53,383 nucleotides of DNA from Anaerofustis stercorihominis. GTDB taxonomy: Bacteria > Bacillota > Clostridia > Eubacteriales > Anaerofustaceae. The position numbers were made by a program, and so were the translations under genes. Within the stretch, counting starts at the first letter, position 1. Each line of letters begins with the position of its first letter. Positions 4,784-26,908 of this stretch are shown piece by piece. Location of the stretch: the NCBI GenBank assembly GCA_015058295.1, contig SVCP01000009.1:1-53383 (forward strand). Reading direction: 5' to 3'. The notes under the pieces were generated by a model. It saw nothing but the letters and a program-made list of their open reading frames with translations, was not told the DNA's origin and searched no databases.

Positions 4784-6804
<2,021 letters not shown>

Positions 6805-20485: not shown

Positions 20486-20712
20486 AAAAAATCCCTGTAT
20501 AAATACAGGGACGAATAATCCGTGGTTCCACCCAGTTTAGCTTACGCTCACTCATTATATCTTTAACGCAGAAATACGCACCGTCCTACTTTGTTCAGCG
20601 GTGAGCTCGGAAGGGGTTTTCGTAAGGCTTCAAATAAGACGCTTTCAGCATATGCATCTCTCTCTGGAAAAGAAGATTCTTACTACTCGTCTTCGTCACA
20701 GCTTTTGACACA
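20486..20712 (-). promoter_or_regulatory. T-box riboswitch leader of thrS
   Basis: Read on the minus strand, the leader carries the conserved T-box GGGTGGAACCACG (20521-20533), which pairs with the tRNA acceptor end, then a terminator stem TCCCTGTA / TACAGGGA followed by seven T (20485-20511). The AGAGAGA and AGTA-type elements expected of stem I lie near its 5' end. A candidate Thr specifier codon ACC is at 20600-20602. Uncharged tRNA-Thr would stabilise the antiterminator and allow thrS transcription. The element class is secure; the specifier assignment is tentative. Confidence 0.92.
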
Positions 20713-20813: not shown

Positions 20814-20918
20814 ATGCAGATTGTTAGCCATGTGAAAAATAATTTGACGGAAACGGTAATAGAAAATGAGGAGGTTTATGAGATCATCTCATCAGTGGTT
20901 GCGGAGACTGAAGAGTGA
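20814..20918 (+). CDS. 34-codon ORF coupled to the serine recombinase
   Basis: A short acidic peptide starting MQIVSHVKNNL and ending SVVAETEE, with an excellent CGGGAGG 7 bases before its ATG. Its TGA overlaps the GTG start of the recombinase (GTGA), and the recombinase has no ribosome site of its own beyond the GAGACTGAAGAG region. That makes translational coupling likely. It could be a leader peptide or a small partner of the recombinase; no family is recognised. Confidence 0.6.
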   Translation: MQIVSHVKNNLTETVIENEEVYEIISSVVAETEE

Positions 20919-22267
20919 GGGCTGCTCTTTATTGCAGAGTATCCACCGATATGCAGACAGAGGGATATTCCATTGACGCACAGAAAGAACTTCTTGCATC
21001 ATATTGTAAGATAAAGGGTATAAATAAATATTCGTACTATGTGGATGCAGGATATTCGGGAAGCAATATGCTTCGTCCGTCGCTCAGCAAACTTACAGCT
21101 GATTGTAAAGAAAAAAAGATCAGTGTCGTAATCGTTTACAAACTTGACCGACTTTCACGAAGTCAGAAAGATACGCTTTTTCTTATTGAGGAGGTTTTTA
21201 TACCCAACGGAGTGGATTTTATATCCATAAGTGAAAATTTTGATACTGCATCTCCGTTTGGAAAGGCTATGATAGGAATACTCTCCGTATTTGCTCAGCT
21301 TGAGAGAGAAACTATCAGGGAGCGTACCCGCATGGGTATGAAAGAGAGGGTAAAAGCAGGATATTTCCCCGGGGGAGGTAAACTTCCTTATGGATATGAC
21401 TACGACAAGAACCGGGGAATACTTGTTCCGAACGAAAGAAGCGAAGATGTCAGAAAAATGTACGAAATGTATATCAGCGGAATTCCGGTTGGGAGAATAG
21501 CAAAGCATTTCGGCATAAAGTACGATTCTCTCGTGAAAAACATACTGAAAAGCAAAATTAATTGTGGTATTCTTGAGTATAATGGAGAAGAATATCCTGC
21601 ACTTCATAAAGCTATAGTCGACAGAAAGACATATGAGCGTGCCATGGAGATAATGCAGAGAAAAGGCAGGAGCGCTGTCAGAGTAAGTAAAAATCTTTTG
21701 ACGGGAATAGTATACTGTGGTGTCTGCGGCGCAAAAATGCGTTATCAGAAATGGGGAAGTGCCGGGCATAAGATATGCTGTTATTCACAGCAGTCTGATA
21801 AAGAGTATATGATCAGGGATAAAAACTGTGACAATACGAAGCATTTTTCTCATATTATTGAAAATGCTGTTATGAGCGAGCTGTTTAAAATGTCACTTGA
21901 TCCGAACAGAATAAATTCGGAAAACCGCAGACAAAAAGAAGACGATCTGAAATGCCTGCAGAAAAAACTCAGCGAAAACAATAAAAAGATCAATAATCTC
22001 ATTGATTTTATAGCCAACGGAATAGCTGTAGATGAGGTATCTGAGAAACTGCAGAAACTGAAGGCGGAAAATGAAAAAATAGATTCAGAAATACAAAGCA
22101 AAAATAATATTACAAAGAAGATGCATCTGTTCAAAGAAAAAATATCGGGGCTCTCAGATGTATGGACAGAGCTTGATGAACAACAAAAACGCAATATTAT
22201 ACTTAGTCTGGTAGATAAAGTCGTAATAACCTACGACAGGATCGATATATTTTATACATTTGAGTGA
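20915..22267 (+). CDS. Large serine recombinase (site-specific integrase/resolvase family)
   Basis: 450 residues with the usual order: resolvase catalytic domain (1-140) with nucleophile Ser10 in YCRVSTDMQ and the downstream arginines of KLDRLSRSQKD, a recombinase domain (about 150-260), a zinc-ribbon-like part (YCGVCGAKM with later Cys near 300), and a C-terminal coiled coil (about 330-400). The protein looks intact. Such enzymes move phages and conjugative elements or rearrange sporulation genes. Here no phage, conjugation or attachment-site structure is visible next to it, so it may be a domesticated enzyme or a lone remnant. It starts at GTG, overlapping the 34-codon ORF. Confidence 0.93.
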   Translation: MRAALYCRVSTDMQTEGYSIDAQKELLASYCKIKGINKYSYYVDAGYSGSNMLRPSLSKLTADCKEKKISVVIVYKLDRLSRSQKDTLFLIEEVFIPNGVDFISISENFDTASPFGKAMIGILSVFAQLERETIRERTRMGMKERVKAGYFPGGGKLPYGYDYDKNRGILVPNERSEDVRKMYEMYISGIPVGRIAKHFGIKYDSLVKNILKSKINCGILEYNGEEYPALHKAIVDRKTYERAMEIMQRKGRSAVRVSKNLLTGIVYCGVCGAKMRYQKWGSAGHKICCYSQQSDKEYMIRDKNCDNTKHFSHIIENAVMSELFKMSLDPNRINSENRRQKEDDLKCLQKKLSENNKKINNLIDFIANGIAVDEVSEKLQKLKAENEKIDSEIQSKNNITKKMHLFKEKISGLSDVWTELDEQQKRNIILSLVDKVVITYDRIDIFYTFE

Positions 22268-22307: not shown

Positions 22308-22336
22308 TTGCTTTTTCCCGTGCATACGTATATAAT
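22308..22336 (+). promoter_or_regulatory. Promoter for the Cys-rich ATPase gene
   Basis: TTGCTT and TATAAT with 17 bases between, lying within an imperfect TGCATA-type palindrome (22321-22347). It separates this gene's expression from the recombinase. Confidence 0.7.
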
Positions 22337-22370
22337 GTATATGTGCATGTACAGTGCATTGGAGGAAATA

Positions 22371-23258
22371 ATGAGCAACGAATATGAAAAAAATTATGAT
22401 AAAGACAGAGTACTTGAAAGTGGCATAAAATCATGCTCCGACTGTTCTGATTGCGGTGATTGTGACGGTTGTGACGGAGAATGCGGTGAGATCTATGATA
22501 ATCTCAACAAAGAATCAAAGATCCGCTGTGTAGTTATGGTATGCGGTGTAAAAGGTGGCATAGGAAAATCAAGTGTATCCGGTATCCTTGCAAACAGATT
22601 GAGAACGCTTGGTTACAGTGTTGGTATCCTTGATGCAAATCTTTCGGCATCGGCAATAGGGGCTATGTATGGCGCTACACGCAAACCTATCGTCGGGGAT
22701 GCGGGAATTATTCCTGTATTTACGGAAAACGGAATCGAAATAATTTCGCTGCCGTGTTTTATTAACAACGAAGCTATTCCCATGAGCCTCGGTTCAAAAG
22801 ATGCAAAAGAATTTGCCCTTCAGTTTTACAGTGATGTTGTGTGGGGGATGCTTGATGTTCTTCTTATTGATTGTCCTTCAGACACAGCAGATGTAATGCA
22901 GGAGCTCATCAATATCGGAGAGCTTGACGGTGTTATTCTTGTTACGGACGCAGGGGAACTTTCAGGTATCATGGCTCAGAAAACTGCAAACTTTGCATGG
23001 ATAAACAAACTTAATGTTGTAGGTCTTGTTGAAAACTATGCGGACCTTTATGAAGATAAAGCTGTAATAGATTCTCTGTGTCAGAACTTCGGGATCAATT
23101 CCAGGGACAGCCTTGATACGGATATGAGTATCCGCAGACTCAGTGATAACGGCCTTTTCCACGAATATGATAAAGATGTTCTCGGAAATATAGTTGATAA
23201 ACTCATCTATATAAGTGAACACCATAATGACCGAGTATATGAGGTTGTTGAAGAATAA
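22371..23258 (+). CDS. P-loop ATPase of the Mrp/MinD/ParA superfamily with an N-terminal Cys cluster
   Basis: 295 residues from the ATG at 22371, which has GGAGG 5 bases upstream; the frame stays open further upstream without a site. Residues 22-38 hold six Cys in a regular C-x2-C ladder ending C-x3-C, rich in Asp and Gly. The deviant Walker A GVKGGIGKSS is at 59-68 with the signature Lys61, and LIDCPSDTAD is the switch/Walker B. Cys-rich starts are typical of Mrp/NBP35-type Fe-S carriers, but the CPxC motif that bridges the cluster in those proteins is absent from the C-terminal half. MinD/FlhG-like roles are therefore equally possible. It stands upstream of an operon with a cysteine desulfurase. 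Confidence 0.75.
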   Translation: MSNEYEKNYDKDRVLESGIKSCSDCSDCGDCDGCDGECGEIYDNLNKESKIRCVVMVCGVKGGIGKSSVSGILANRLRTLGYSVGILDANLSASAIGAMYGATRKPIVGDAGIIPVFTENGIEIISLPCFINNEAIPMSLGSKDAKEFALQFYSDVVWGMLDVLLIDCPSDTADVMQELINIGELDGVILVTDAGELSGIMAQKTANFAWINKLNVVGLVENYADLYEDKAVIDSLCQNFGINSRDSLDTDMSIRRLSDNGLFHEYDKDVLGNIVDKLIYISEHHNDRVYEVVEE

Positions 23259-23368
23259 AAAAATCGGAAAAAAGCATAACTTCGGTGTTATTTTAAGCTT
23301 AACTAAAGTTTGCGGTGATATCATAATGCCAAGATAATATTTTTTCCTTTCCTTTTTTATATAGCTTT

Positions 23369-23397
23369 AGGAGTTTGCGTACGCTTGCTCCTTTTTG
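23369..23397 (+). terminator. Probable terminator after the Cys-rich ATPase
   Basis: AGGAG / CTCCT outer stem around the palindrome GCGTACGC, then TTTTT. The mismatched middle lowers confidence. Confidence 0.6.
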
Positions 23398-23527: not shown

Positions 23528-24598
23528 ATGAGAGCTACTGTTAATATCAATACGGATAAAATAAAATATAATGCAGCAATCATACTCAAGACATGCCATG
23601 ATGTGGGAATAGATGTTGCGGCTGTTACGAAAATGCATTCTGCCGATATAAATATATGCAGTGCTCTTCTTGAAAGCGGAGTAAAGTATCTTGCAGACTC
23701 GCGCATAGAAAACATTGCGTATATGAGCGAGAACGGCATAGATGCGGAAAAATGGCTTATGAGGATAGTTGCACCTAGTATTGTTCCTGATGTTGTGAAA
23801 TATGCGGATATGTCATTCAACAGCGATATAAGCACTATACGTTTATTGAACGACGAGGCTAACAGACAGGGAAAAAAACATAAGATAATGCTTATGTGGG
23901 ATCTCGGGGATCTGAGAGAAGGATATTTTGAGACAGCGCATCTCCTCTCATGTGTAAGGGATATGAAAGATCTTGACGGGGTCGAACTGTCCGGTCTGGG
24001 AACTAATCTATCATGTTACGGTGGAGTGAAACCAACCAGAACAAATCTCACAAGACTTGTTGAAGTTGCTTCAATGATTGAAAATGAAACGGGAAGAAAG
24101 CTTGATCATATTTCAGGAGGGAATTCAACGAGCTATTCATTGATTCTTGAAGGAAATATGCCTGAAGGAATAACAAATCTTCGTATCGGAGATTCGTTCT
24201 ATTTCGGCAGAGATGTGAAAAAACGAGAGTATATACCCGGTATGAAAAATGACTGTTTTATTCTCGAAGGAGAAGTAGTCGAAGTAAAGATAAAGCCATC
24301 GGTCCCTATCGGAGAAAGAGGTTATGCGGCACTGAACAGTCTGCCTGAATTTGAAGACAGAGGTATGATAAAGCGAGCTATTATCAGTGTCGGAAAACAG
24401 GACATTGATCTTGATATGACACCGATTGATGAAGGTGCTTTAATTCTCGGAGCAAGCAGCGATCATCTTCTGGTAGATGTTACGGACTGTACAAGAGACA
24501 TAAAAGTAGGAGATAAAATGCAGTTTAATATGCTTTATACTGCAACAATGCGTTCTTTTACAAGCAAATACATTGATAAGAGATATATAAATGAATAA
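23528..24598 (+). CDS. PLP-dependent alanine/ornithine racemase family protein
   Basis: 356 residues of the fold-III alanine-racemase N-terminal barrel. The PLP lysine is predicted as Lys35 in AAVTKMHSAD, with the family marks LADSRIENI, SGGNSTSYSLI and LRIGDSFYFGR. This pattern fits the alanine/ornithine racemase branch (Orr/YhfX-like) rather than cell-wall Alr. The substrate is not predictable. GGAGGGG precedes the ATG. It overlaps the desulfurase gene by 8 bases, so the three genes to thiI form one operon. Confidence 0.8.
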   Translation: MRATVNINTDKIKYNAAIILKTCHDVGIDVAAVTKMHSADINICSALLESGVKYLADSRIENIAYMSENGIDAEKWLMRIVAPSIVPDVVKYADMSFNSDISTIRLLNDEANRQGKKHKIMLMWDLGDLREGYFETAHLLSCVRDMKDLDGVELSGLGTNLSCYGGVKPTRTNLTRLVEVASMIENETGRKLDHISGGNSTSYSLILEGNMPEGITNLRIGDSFYFGRDVKKREYIPGMKNDCFILEGEVVEVKIKPSVPIGERGYAALNSLPEFEDRGMIKRAIISVGKQDIDLDMTPIDEGALILGASSDHLLVDVTDCTRDIKVGDKMQFNMLYTATMRSFTSKYIDKRYINE

Positions 24599-25748
24599 TA
24601 TTTATTTGGATAATGCAGCAACGACGAGAGTCTATGACGAAGTAATAGAATATCTTGCATCACAATATAAGGACAATTACGCGAATCCTTCGTCTGCTCA
24701 TAAATTCGGATCATCTGCTGCTGCAGAAGTGGAAAAAGCCGAACATGTAATACTTGATTTTTACGGATTGAAAAATGATGACTGGAAAGTGATATTTACT
24801 TCCGGTGCTACCGAGTCCGCAAATCTTGCGATCAAAGGAACACTGGACAAATATGATGATATTTCAAAGGCTAAAATAATAACAACAGCCATTGAACACC
24901 CGTGTGTAAGCAAGGTTTTTGAGTATTGCAAAAGTAAAGGCGCGGAAGCTGTTGTTATAAACACAGATTCTTTCGGCAGAGTTGATATCACAGCTCTGGA
25001 GAATGCCGTTGACGAAAAGACGAAACTCGTCAGTATTATATTTGTCAATAATGAAACGGGAATAATACAGGATATTGCAAATATCGGAAAGATCATAAAG
25101 AAAAAAAATAAAAGCACGCTCGTGCATATTGATGCCACACAGGGATATCTTGAAAAGTTATGCTGCGATGATATTGATCTGATAAGCATTTCCGCTCATA
25201 AATTCCATGCACCCAAAGGTGTCGGCGCGCTTATTGTGAGAAAGAACATTACGCTTTCTGCACAGATGCATGGTGGGGGACAGCAGAATGCAATCAGAAG
25301 CGGAACCGTAAATTCTCCGCTCATCGGGGCTATGGGAGTAGCTCTGGATACATTGAAAAAAAATGATCCGAGGCAGTATGTGAAAGAACTGCAGGAATAT
25401 CTTTATAAACAGATTTCCGATAAATTCGGTGAAGATGTGATCAATTCACGTATATACGAAGCAGACTATGCACCGCACATTCTCAGCATGTCATTTGAAG
25501 GACTTAACGGTTCGCATATTCTGTATAATCTGGAAGCAGTCGGGATATTTGTGTCCACTTCATCTGCCTGCTCAACACACTCGAAAGACAAAAGTGTCCT
25601 TGAGAATATGGGAATGACGAATAAAAGAGCCCAGGGAACAATCAGGGTGAGCCTGAGTGAATACAACACAAAAGAAGAAATAGATATATTTACTGAAGAA
25701 CTCAGTAAAGTAGTAACAAAACTAAGAAAGCTGTATAGGGTAAAATAA
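24591..25748 (+). CDS. Cysteine desulfurase (NifS/IscS family)
   Basis: PLP enzyme (385 residues) that takes sulfur from cysteine as an enzyme persulfide. The PLP lysine is Lys204 in SISAHKFHAPKG and the active Cys is Cys327 in STSSACSTHS. It lies immediately upstream of thiI, sharing one base with it. This is the arrangement of the dedicated desulfurase that feeds ThiI in Bacillus (NifZ). tRNA 4-thiouridine synthesis is therefore the likely destination, although a role in Fe-S assembly cannot be excluded. Confidence 0.95.
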   Translation: MNNIYLDNAATTRVYDEVIEYLASQYKDNYANPSSAHKFGSSAAAEVEKAEHVILDFYGLKNDDWKVIFTSGATESANLAIKGTLDKYDDISKAKIITTAIEHPCVSKVFEYCKSKGAEAVVINTDSFGRVDITALENAVDEKTKLVSIIFVNNETGIIQDIANIGKIIKKKNKSTLVHIDATQGYLEKLCCDDIDLISISAHKFHAPKGVGALIVRKNITLSAQMHGGGQQNAIRSGTVNSPLIGAMGVALDTLKKNDPRQYVKELQEYLYKQISDKFGEDVINSRIYEADYAPHILSMSFEGLNGSHILYNLEAVGIFVSTSSACSTHSKDKSVLENMGMTNKRAQGTIRVSLSEYNTKEEIDIFTEELSKVVTKLRKLYRVK

Positions 25749-26908
25749 TGGACAAAAGGCTTATACTTGTCAAATACGGAGAAATTACATTAAAAGGACT
25801 TAACCAGCATTATTTTCTTGAAACGCTTATGAAAAATATCAGATACGCAATAAAAGGTATCGAAGATGCAAAAGTAAGCAAGATTCAGGGAAGAATTACA
25901 ATAAATGATGTGAAAGCCGAAGATGAGGCTGAAGTTATCTCCCGCCTTAAAAAGGTATTCGGTATTGTTGCAATAGTCGTTGCAAGAGAATGCGAAGCAG
26001 ATATGGATTCGATTAAAGCTGTTGCTCTTGAAATTATGAAGGATAAGGAAAACTGTACATTCAAGGCGGAAGCAAAACGCGGAAACAAGGCCTTTCCGTA
26101 TACTTCTCCGCAGATTGCAAAGATGGTTGGTGCTCATGTTCTCGTCAATACAGAGACTATCACAGTCGATGTTCATAATCCGGATTATACCCTTACTGTA
26201 GAAGTACGAAATAAAGCTTATGTATACTGTGATGATATCCCGTGCGAAGCAGGTCTTCCCCTCGGCACAGGTGGAAGTGGTGCACTTCTTCTTTCAGGAG
26301 GTATCGACAGTCCTGTGGCCGGATATATGATGAACAGAAGGGGAATGAAAATCTGTTCTATCCACTTCCACTCATATCCTTATACAAGCCTTGAAGCTCA
26401 GAAAAAAGCAACGGATCTTGCACAGAAGTTGCGTCCATATAATATGGGGATGACACTTATAAATGTAAGTGTTACAAAGATTCAGGAAGAGATCATACAG
26501 AAATGCGATGAATCTTATCTTACGGTAATACTCAGAAGATTTATGTTCCGTATTGCCGAAAAGATATGTGAACAGAGAGACATCAGTGCCCTCATTACAG
26601 GAGAGAGTCTTGGCCAGGTCGCTTCGCAGACAATCGAAAGCATCAACTGTACAAATGCAGTGGTTTCGCTTCCGATTCTCCGACCGCTTATTGCCCACGA
26701 TAAAAATGAGATTATGGCACTTGCCCGTCATATAGATACTTATGATATCTCTATCCGTCCGTTTGAAGACTGTTGCACAGTGTTCGTTCCGAAACACCCG
26801 CAGATAAAGCCATCATTGGAAAAAGTAGAACTGCAGGAAAGCAGACTTGATGTTGATGCACTTGTACAGGAGGCGCTTGAAGGAATCGAGATCGTAAGGA
26901 TCCGCTGA
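25748..26908 (+). CDS. thiI: tRNA 4-thiouridine synthetase ThiI
   Basis: Adenylates U8 of tRNA and inserts sulfur received from a cysteine desulfurase. At 386 residues it has the NFLD-THUMP part (about 1-165) and the PP-loop domain with LLSGGIDSPVAGYM around residue 183, but no C-terminal rhodanese domain. It is therefore the short, Bacillus-type form. The ATG shares a base with the desulfurase stop. Confidence 0.95.
   Translation: MDKRLILVKYGEITLKGLNQHYFLETLMKNIRYAIKGIEDAKVSKIQGRITINDVKAEDEAEVISRLKKVFGIVAIVVARECEADMDSIKAVALEIMKDKENCTFKAEAKRGNKAFPYTSPQIAKMVGAHVLVNTETITVDVHNPDYTLTVEVRNKAYVYCDDIPCEAGLPLGTGGSGALLLSGGIDSPVAGYMMNRRGMKICSIHFHSYPYTSLEAQKKATDLAQKLRPYNMGMTLINVSVTKIQEEIIQKCDESYLTVILRRFMFRIAEKICEQRDISALITGESLGQVASQTIESINCTNAVVSLPILRPLIAHDKNEIMALARHIDTYDISIRPFEDCCTVFVPKHPQIKPSLEKVELQESRLDVDALVQEALEGIEIVRIR

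Follow-up and report, generated by a model that had tools for sequence, protein, structure and literature searches.

The gene at positions 22371..23258 (+) of the window, that is, the whole 53,383-nt stretch of Anaerofustis stercorihominis DNA analysed here, encodes what is, by its sequence, a strongly diverged Mrp/NBP35 paralogue, with a six-Cys ladder at its N-terminus and without the CPxC motif. We give about even chances to the proposal that it is a lineage-restricted member of the family with a changed job, in which the ladder would hold a cluster or metal, ATP hydrolysis would be poor, and the protein would act as a homodimer or a mixed dimer. What the N-terminal cluster and ATP hydrolysis each do in Mrp/NBP35 proteins is described as unclear (PMC10108433, PMC6345978). 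Here a natural member has kept, and seemingly enlarged, its ladder and lost both the bridging motif and the catalytic Asp, so that these roles are separated without mutagenesis, in a variant that can be set directly beside the cell's ordinary Mrp. The variant may now serve another purpose in metal handling. Among the open-licence papers listed, none described an Mrp protein of such make-up. The reach of the finding is limited, because the known distribution of the variant is two genomes of one genus.

Family assignment and predicted fold

The open reading frame starts with ATG and encodes 295 residues plus a stop codon, as supported by its translation, its match to PF10609 and an orthologue of the same length. 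Profile searches against Mrp, MinD and ParA models, a check proposed along with the initial annotation, assigned the protein to the Mrp family. Against the Pfam model PF10609 (NUBPL/Mrp; cut-off 27.1), it scores 123.9 bits and its orthologue 127.9 bits, the ordinary Mrp of its own genome reaching about 300.6–300.8 bits. The NCBIfam models minD_arch and minD_bact gave 26.3 (cut-off 201.75) and 14.5 (cut-off 212.9), respectively, and the ParA-type NCBIfam models scored far under their cut-offs as well. The sole related Pfam model above its own cut-off was CBP_BcsQ (23.8 vs 21.3), which covers residues 54–90. The window ATPase also falls under the cut-offs of the NCBIfam equivalogs MrpORP (105.3 of 450) and ApbC (65.9 of 348), but this test is weak, since the ordinary Mrp of the same genome fails them too (329.4 and 207, respectively). 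Among solved structures, the nearest sequences are the archaeal Mrp/ApbC proteins 2ph1 and 3kb1, followed by Cfd1.

The AlphaFold model of the window ATPase, built with 15 aligned sequences, has a mean pLDDT of 81.8, with 171 of its 295 residues at or above 90. Residues 1–41 are nearly all of low confidence, which is expected without metal and is not informative. Searches with Foldseek and VIA-align revealed that the model is closest to 3kb1 (Z 27.7), ApbC 8zkc (Z 27.4), ATPase-type HypB 5aun/5auo (Z 27.0) and 2ph1. Altogether, Mrp, ApbC, ATPase-type HypB and Cfd1 (Z 24.9 to 27.7) rank above MinD, FleN, FlhG and NifH (Z about 20 to 21). The predicted fold is Mrp-like.

These results bear on the suggestion of the initial annotation that a MinD/FlhG-like protein might have gained a metal-binding tail. 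A positioning ATPase of the MinD/FlhG/ParA type would share the deviant Walker A motif and the fold class with the window ATPase, and FleN, MinD and FlhG still align with the model at Z 20–21. However, the scores lie far under the MinD and ParA cut-offs and far under the PF10609 score, the fold comparison places MinD, FleN and FlhG below Mrp, ApbC and Cfd1, and N-terminal Cys residues are already present in ordinary Mrps. We thus discarded membership in this group on the profile scores, and consider such an origin extremely improbable.

The cysteine ladder and the altered motifs

The same genome encodes a standard Mrp at locus L001, with the N-terminus CTSNCSTCDKSDC and CPDC further on; the window ATPase is therefore an extra member of the family and not the genome's Mrp, and most simply a paralogue of it. 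Indeed, both variant-bearing genomes possess an ordinary Mrp with CPDC, the sister-genome copy being L040. Our search for orthologues covered 61 relatives, 13 family genomes, 67 order genomes and 391 class genomes, in overlapping sets, and yielded a single one, in the sister genome, making two of the two genus genomes positive. In the class search, a sample of 391 genomes with at most six candidates scored in each and the 30 best matches read as loci, the two variants gave 634 and 646 bits, and the next best match 152. A contig scan with patterns from one protein returned the sister locus only, on JAFXKY010000054.1, a contig of a Eubacteriaceae MAG from sheep rectum; as this is the same locus as the sister-genome orthologue, it was counted once. 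The orthologue comprises 295 residues from the homologous ATG and shares 66% identity (195/294) with the window ATPase.

The ladder lies at 22434..22484 (+) and, as seen in the translation and in the orthologue, follows the pattern CxxCxxCxxCxxCxxxC, with Cys 22, 25, 28, 31 and 34 at x2 spacing and Cys 38 at x3; besides Cys, it is rich in Asp. The translation agrees with the initial annotation, which had noticed six Cys (residues 22–38) ahead of a deviant Walker A motif with its signature Lys, here residue 61. Given the 11 Cys of the protein in total, a five-Cys ladder of x2 spacing arose once in 200,000 shuffles of its own residues, and six Cys inside 17 residues arose 90 times in 200,000. 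Among the window's 313 stop-to-stop frames of at least 60 aa, this ladder is the longest of its kind. All six Cys are kept in the orthologue, with four of the six codons changed synonymously, and C53, C129, C168 and C237 are conserved in the pair as well. The initial annotation had held that close homologues devoid of the ladder would make it dispensable; the sole close homologue found (n = 1) retains it. The spacing of Cys 28–38, CxxCxxCxxxC, is that of the ferredoxin motif. A ferredoxin domain at this place was rejected, for no Fer4 family matched at E up to 0.1.

Beyond the ladder, the two variants depart from ordinary Mrps at several motifs. The Walker A segment of the window ATPase, GVKGGIGKSS (residues 59–68; 22545..22574, +), was read from the translation. 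The core given for Mrp/NBP35 carriers, KGGXXK[S/T] (PMC9178275), is present as KGGIGKS in the window ATPase and as KGGIGKT in the orthologue; with respect to the full form given for Mrp, GKGGhGK[ST] (PMC6345978), the first Gly is replaced by Val in both (VKGGIGK). Alignments and a motif survey further located switch I, LDANLSA (residues 87–93; 22629..22649, +), where Asn90 takes the place of the second Asp of DxD, and switch II, IDCPSDTAD (residues 166–174; 22866..22892, +), which replaces (D)xPPGTGD. The Mrp signature of PROSITE, PS01215, includes PPGT[GS]D, instead of which both variants read PSDTAD. Following EN, the loop at residues 221–242 (23031..23096, +) is shortened and the CPxC stretch is gone; no CxxC was found after the EN motif (residues 221–222) of the window ATPase, in line with the absence of CPxC noted initially. 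The orthologue shares Asn90, which gives DAN in switch I instead of DAD, as well as PSDTAD and the missing CPxC, and the alignment shows that the KGGIGKS-type loop, the first switch I Asp and the Walker B Asp are intact in both.

We compared these features across 66 distinct proteins from the fetched best-scoring loci L001–L094, one per locus, which is not a random sample. A CxxC after EN together with DxD in switch I occurs in 59 of the 66, and the window ATPase and its orthologue are the only ones with DAN and without CxxC; DAN in switch I is absent from all 64 others. Two further motifs absent from both variants, PPGTGD and W[RK]GP, are found in 63/64 and 62/64 of the others, respectively. 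As to the ladder, for which a survey of relatives had also been proposed at the outset, most ordinary relatives carry four or five N-terminal Cys (62/64 before Walker A), 45/64 in the spacing C-x3-C-x2-C-x3/4-C, from which the ladder differs; the exceptions are L065 with three Cys and L045 with none. None of the 64 has more than three consecutive x2-spaced Cys ahead of Walker A. Because 62 of the 64 carry at least four Cys there, the ladder looks inherited and enlarged. Moreover, Cys 25, 31, 34 and 38 match the four Cys of two ordinary proteins in a four-sequence alignment, so that two Cys were most likely added to an existing tail. Most likely the N-terminal tail was already there in the ancestor, and what went missing is CPxC.

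Taken against the carriers ApbC, Mrp and NUBPL, the variant has in common the PF10609 match, the fold, KGGxGKS, the first switch I Asp, the Walker B Asp and, as in most examined relatives, an N-terminal Cys cluster; it differs in lacking the CPxC loop and WRGP, in reading DAN for DAD and PSDTAD for PPGTGD, and in having six Cys in its ladder against mostly four.

Such divergence might also mark a decaying Mrp copy of no defined function. In a midpoint-rooted tree of Mrp-like proteins, itself one of long branches, the branch of the variant pair is very long (8.03 plus 1.97 changes per column, counted across the root), and its 66% identity compares with 90% (246/273; dN 0.07, dS 1.09) for the ordinary Mrp pair of the same two genomes. 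Against decay, both genomes encode the full 295 residues without internal stops and with the ribosome binding site kept, and the motifs are identical letter for letter in both variants. Furthermore, the dN of the variant pair, 0.28 with an undefined (saturated) NG86 dS, is close to those of orr (0.22) and nifS (0.23) in the same genome pair, where synonymous sites are saturated too. We therefore regard decay as highly unlikely.

The survey also contained other departures from the common pattern. L045 (G006) is a distant, ordinary-looking Mrp of the same family with CPHC present and zero N-terminal Cys; such clusters can accordingly be lost, and L045 would speak against the importance of N-terminal Cys tails in general. 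L029, L036, L079 and L093 are otherwise ordinary Mrps with CPDN, in which one ligand Cys is changed to Asn. L038 (G022), from a different family of the order, is a degenerate Mrp-like protein on a very long branch, with a KGGIGRS Walker A motif, PSGTGD, and no CxxC found.

Proposed mechanism and alternative metal sites

In ordinary Mrp, two monomers share a [4Fe-4S] cluster that is held by the CPxC loop. In the variant, the N-terminal ladder would be the sole cluster or metal site: an enlarged ancestral cluster site that may bind a [4Fe-4S] cluster or another thiophilic metal inside one chain. A precedent comes from human NUBP1, in which a mutant with CPXC changed to alanines is reported to retain about 0.7 [4Fe-4S] per chain at the N-terminal Cys (PMC10108433); as this mutant keeps a cluster, a CPxC-less protein of the Mrp type can hold one. 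NBP35/NUBP1 likewise bears an N-terminal Cys cluster, but its spacing in NUBP1 is CX13CX2CX5C as opposed to CX2CX2CX2CX2CX3C in the variant, its wild type carries CPXC, and it pairs with NUBP2/Cfd1. MrpORP of Desulfovibrio is another Mrp described with non-canonical four-Cys N-terminal motifs, but it retains CXXC and adds a Di-Nase domain (PMC6345978). A metal- or Fe-S-binding ATPase, as the initial annotation proposed, is a plausible reading.

Placed by its motif, the switch I residue that is Asn in the variant and normally the second Asp corresponds to D40 of MinD. The D40A mutant of Bacillus subtilis MinD is reported to have negligible ATPase activity and to behave like a locked dimer (PMC13246001). 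For Ind1, a protein of the Mrp type, alignment of its first Asp with D38 of MinD has been described (PMC6196649). By analogy, we infer that Asn at this position in an Mrp-type protein may act in a similar manner, the D-to-N change in the variant being milder than the D-to-A change studied in MinD. In our putative model, ATP would drive dimerisation as in MinD and Mrp, and hydrolysis would be slow or absent, resulting in a long stay in the ATP-bound dimer. The working form would be a homodimer, or a mixed dimer in which the cell's ordinary Mrp is the second subunit. The variant would then serve as a cluster-holding adaptor or regulator, and not as a carrier that cycles a bridging cluster. A second precedent is the ATPase-type HypB of Thermococcus, a Mrp/MinD-family protein that acts as the partner of HypA (PMC7055735); it shows that ATPases of the Mrp type can be metallochaperone partners even when the CPxC loop is missing. 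Based on NUBP1 and this HypB, we favour a ladder-bearing dimer that binds ATP and hydrolyses it slowly or not at all. A stricter form of this proposal, namely a hydrolysis-dead, ATP-locked dimer with its cluster on the ladder alone, possibly dominating or regulating the ordinary Mrp as its partner, and as such an inverted bacterial counterpart of the way in which eukaryotic NBP35 and Cfd1 divide their labour, appears possible but doubtful.

Alternatively, an Fe-S carrier of the ordinary kind might still cycle with ATP but hold its transfer cluster on the ladder, having given up the CPxC bridge. It would be served by six N-terminal Cys where most ordinary relatives have four or five, by the intact KGGIGKS, first switch I Asp and Walker B Asp, and by the conserved C53, C129, C168 and C237 as possible ligands; nevertheless, Asn90 and the altered PPGTGD argue against normal hydrolysis, and an ordinary Mrp is also present in the genome, which makes this arrangement improbable.

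The comparison with HypB also raises a role outside Fe-S chemistry, in which the acidic Cys ladder would hold a single metal (zinc, nickel, copper or other) in a metallochaperone or store resembling ATPase-type HypB. The fold is equally close to ATPase-type HypB (Z 27.0) and to Mrp (Z 27.7), Asp as well as Cys is abundant in the ladder, and a HypA-like protein is encoded in the same genome. The HypB of Thermococcus kodakarensis (3vx3, 5aun–5auq; residues 14–210 of the 3vx3 chain aligned) is likewise of the Mrp type and, at the corresponding position, also has no CPxC loop. Unlike the variant, however, it has DxD and PPG and, over the aligned residues, lacks a Cys ladder; it is described as HypA's partner in the maturation of [NiFe] hydrogenase, and HypB alone is reported to show no nickel site (PMC7055735). 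In addition, the HypA-like protein of the window's genome is a product of 84 aa without the Cys (Zn) domain, matching profile positions 1–68, and its gene adjoins a GTPase-type HypB gene (TIGR00073, 230.8 bits; cut-off 121.2); the variant-bearing sister genome has no HypA above the cut-off. The combination of a HypA in each genome with an unfilled HypB role was not found, the HypB search covering the window's own genome. The adjoining GTPase HypB and the lack of a HypA above cut-off in the sister genome thus lower the case for membership in ATPase-type HypB, and we consider a single-metal metallochaperone or store rather unlikely. At L181:805-2871, the genes for the 84-aa HypA-like protein, the GTPase HypB and a ferredoxin-domain protein lie side by side.

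Genomic neighbourhood and distant relatives

The initial annotation placed the ATPase gene just upstream of a cysteine-desulfurase operon. Its position stands, but the first gene of that operon is ornithine-racemase-like (436.4 bits against NF040742, cut-off 480), and is joined to nifS and then thiI at 23528–26908 of the window. Among 16 orr-like loci examined, orr and nifS are adjacent in 10 of 13 family genomes; within flanks of about 1.5 kb, the ATPase accompanies them in just two, those of the genus. This distribution lowers a functional link to cysteine desulfurase. The ATPase gene is co-directional with orr-nifS-thiI in one genome and divergent in the other, the gene being inverted relative to them at the sister locus. 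The link of the ATPase to the nifS-thiI operon is weak, and we found no literature joining ornithine racemase, ThiI and cysteine desulfurase. As for other Fe-S genes, the window's genome has one SufB/D-type gene, and its only match to the IscU/NifU_N scaffold is sub-threshold (20.8 of 22 bits).

A ribosome binding site, GGAGG, is evident in the sequence at 22361..22365 (+). Further upstream, pattern matching in both genomes revealed a possible promoter at 22308..22336 (+), consisting of TATAAT and a weak −35 box, TTGCTT, with a 17-nt spacer; a like-spaced box occupies the same place upstream of the orthologue. This box, whose −35 element is weak, is not among the 21 sites that a consensus promoter scan of the window reported, against 14.7 expected from shuffled sequence. 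Given a box of its own in both genomes, the ATPase gene is probably a separate transcription unit. Directly before it, at 20915–22267 of the window, lies a lone large serine recombinase gene, none being seen at the sister locus. Phase-variable inversion by such a recombinase was rejected, as no convincing flanking inverted repeats were found in the window or at the sister locus.

Comparison with the sister genome, together with folding, delineated a conserved, hairpin-prone 3' untranslated stretch at 23259..23372 (+). Within it, a T/C-rich run of 36 nt (23328–23363) is identical to positions 5252–5287 of L039 in the sister genome. Against shuffled sequences, folding of the 3' region gave z −2.9 in one species and −1.8 in the other, and the predicted structures of the two differ in detail. 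A repeated or mobile element was rejected, for the region occurs as a single copy in its own genome. At gathering thresholds, Rfam models matched only a T-box and tRNA in the window. The T-box leader, at 20504–20708 (−) with 115 bits, lies upstream of a threonyl-tRNA synthetase gene.

A scan of viral contigs with the window ATPase itself found no relative, and a scan with an alignment including ordinary Mrps gave 61 loci at 23–32% identity; the ladder is absent from all 21 non-redundant viral-contig loci among the matches listed. The best listed plasmid match has about 31% identity (best 6 of 102 records) and the best listed phage match about 30% (best 6 of 10 records). With only distant matches and no ladder among the matches listed, a viral or plasmid origin of the ATPase was rejected. 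Three loci catalogued as viral in IMG/VR, L112, L113 and L114, encode a clostridial-type Mrp with both N-terminal Cys and CPxC.
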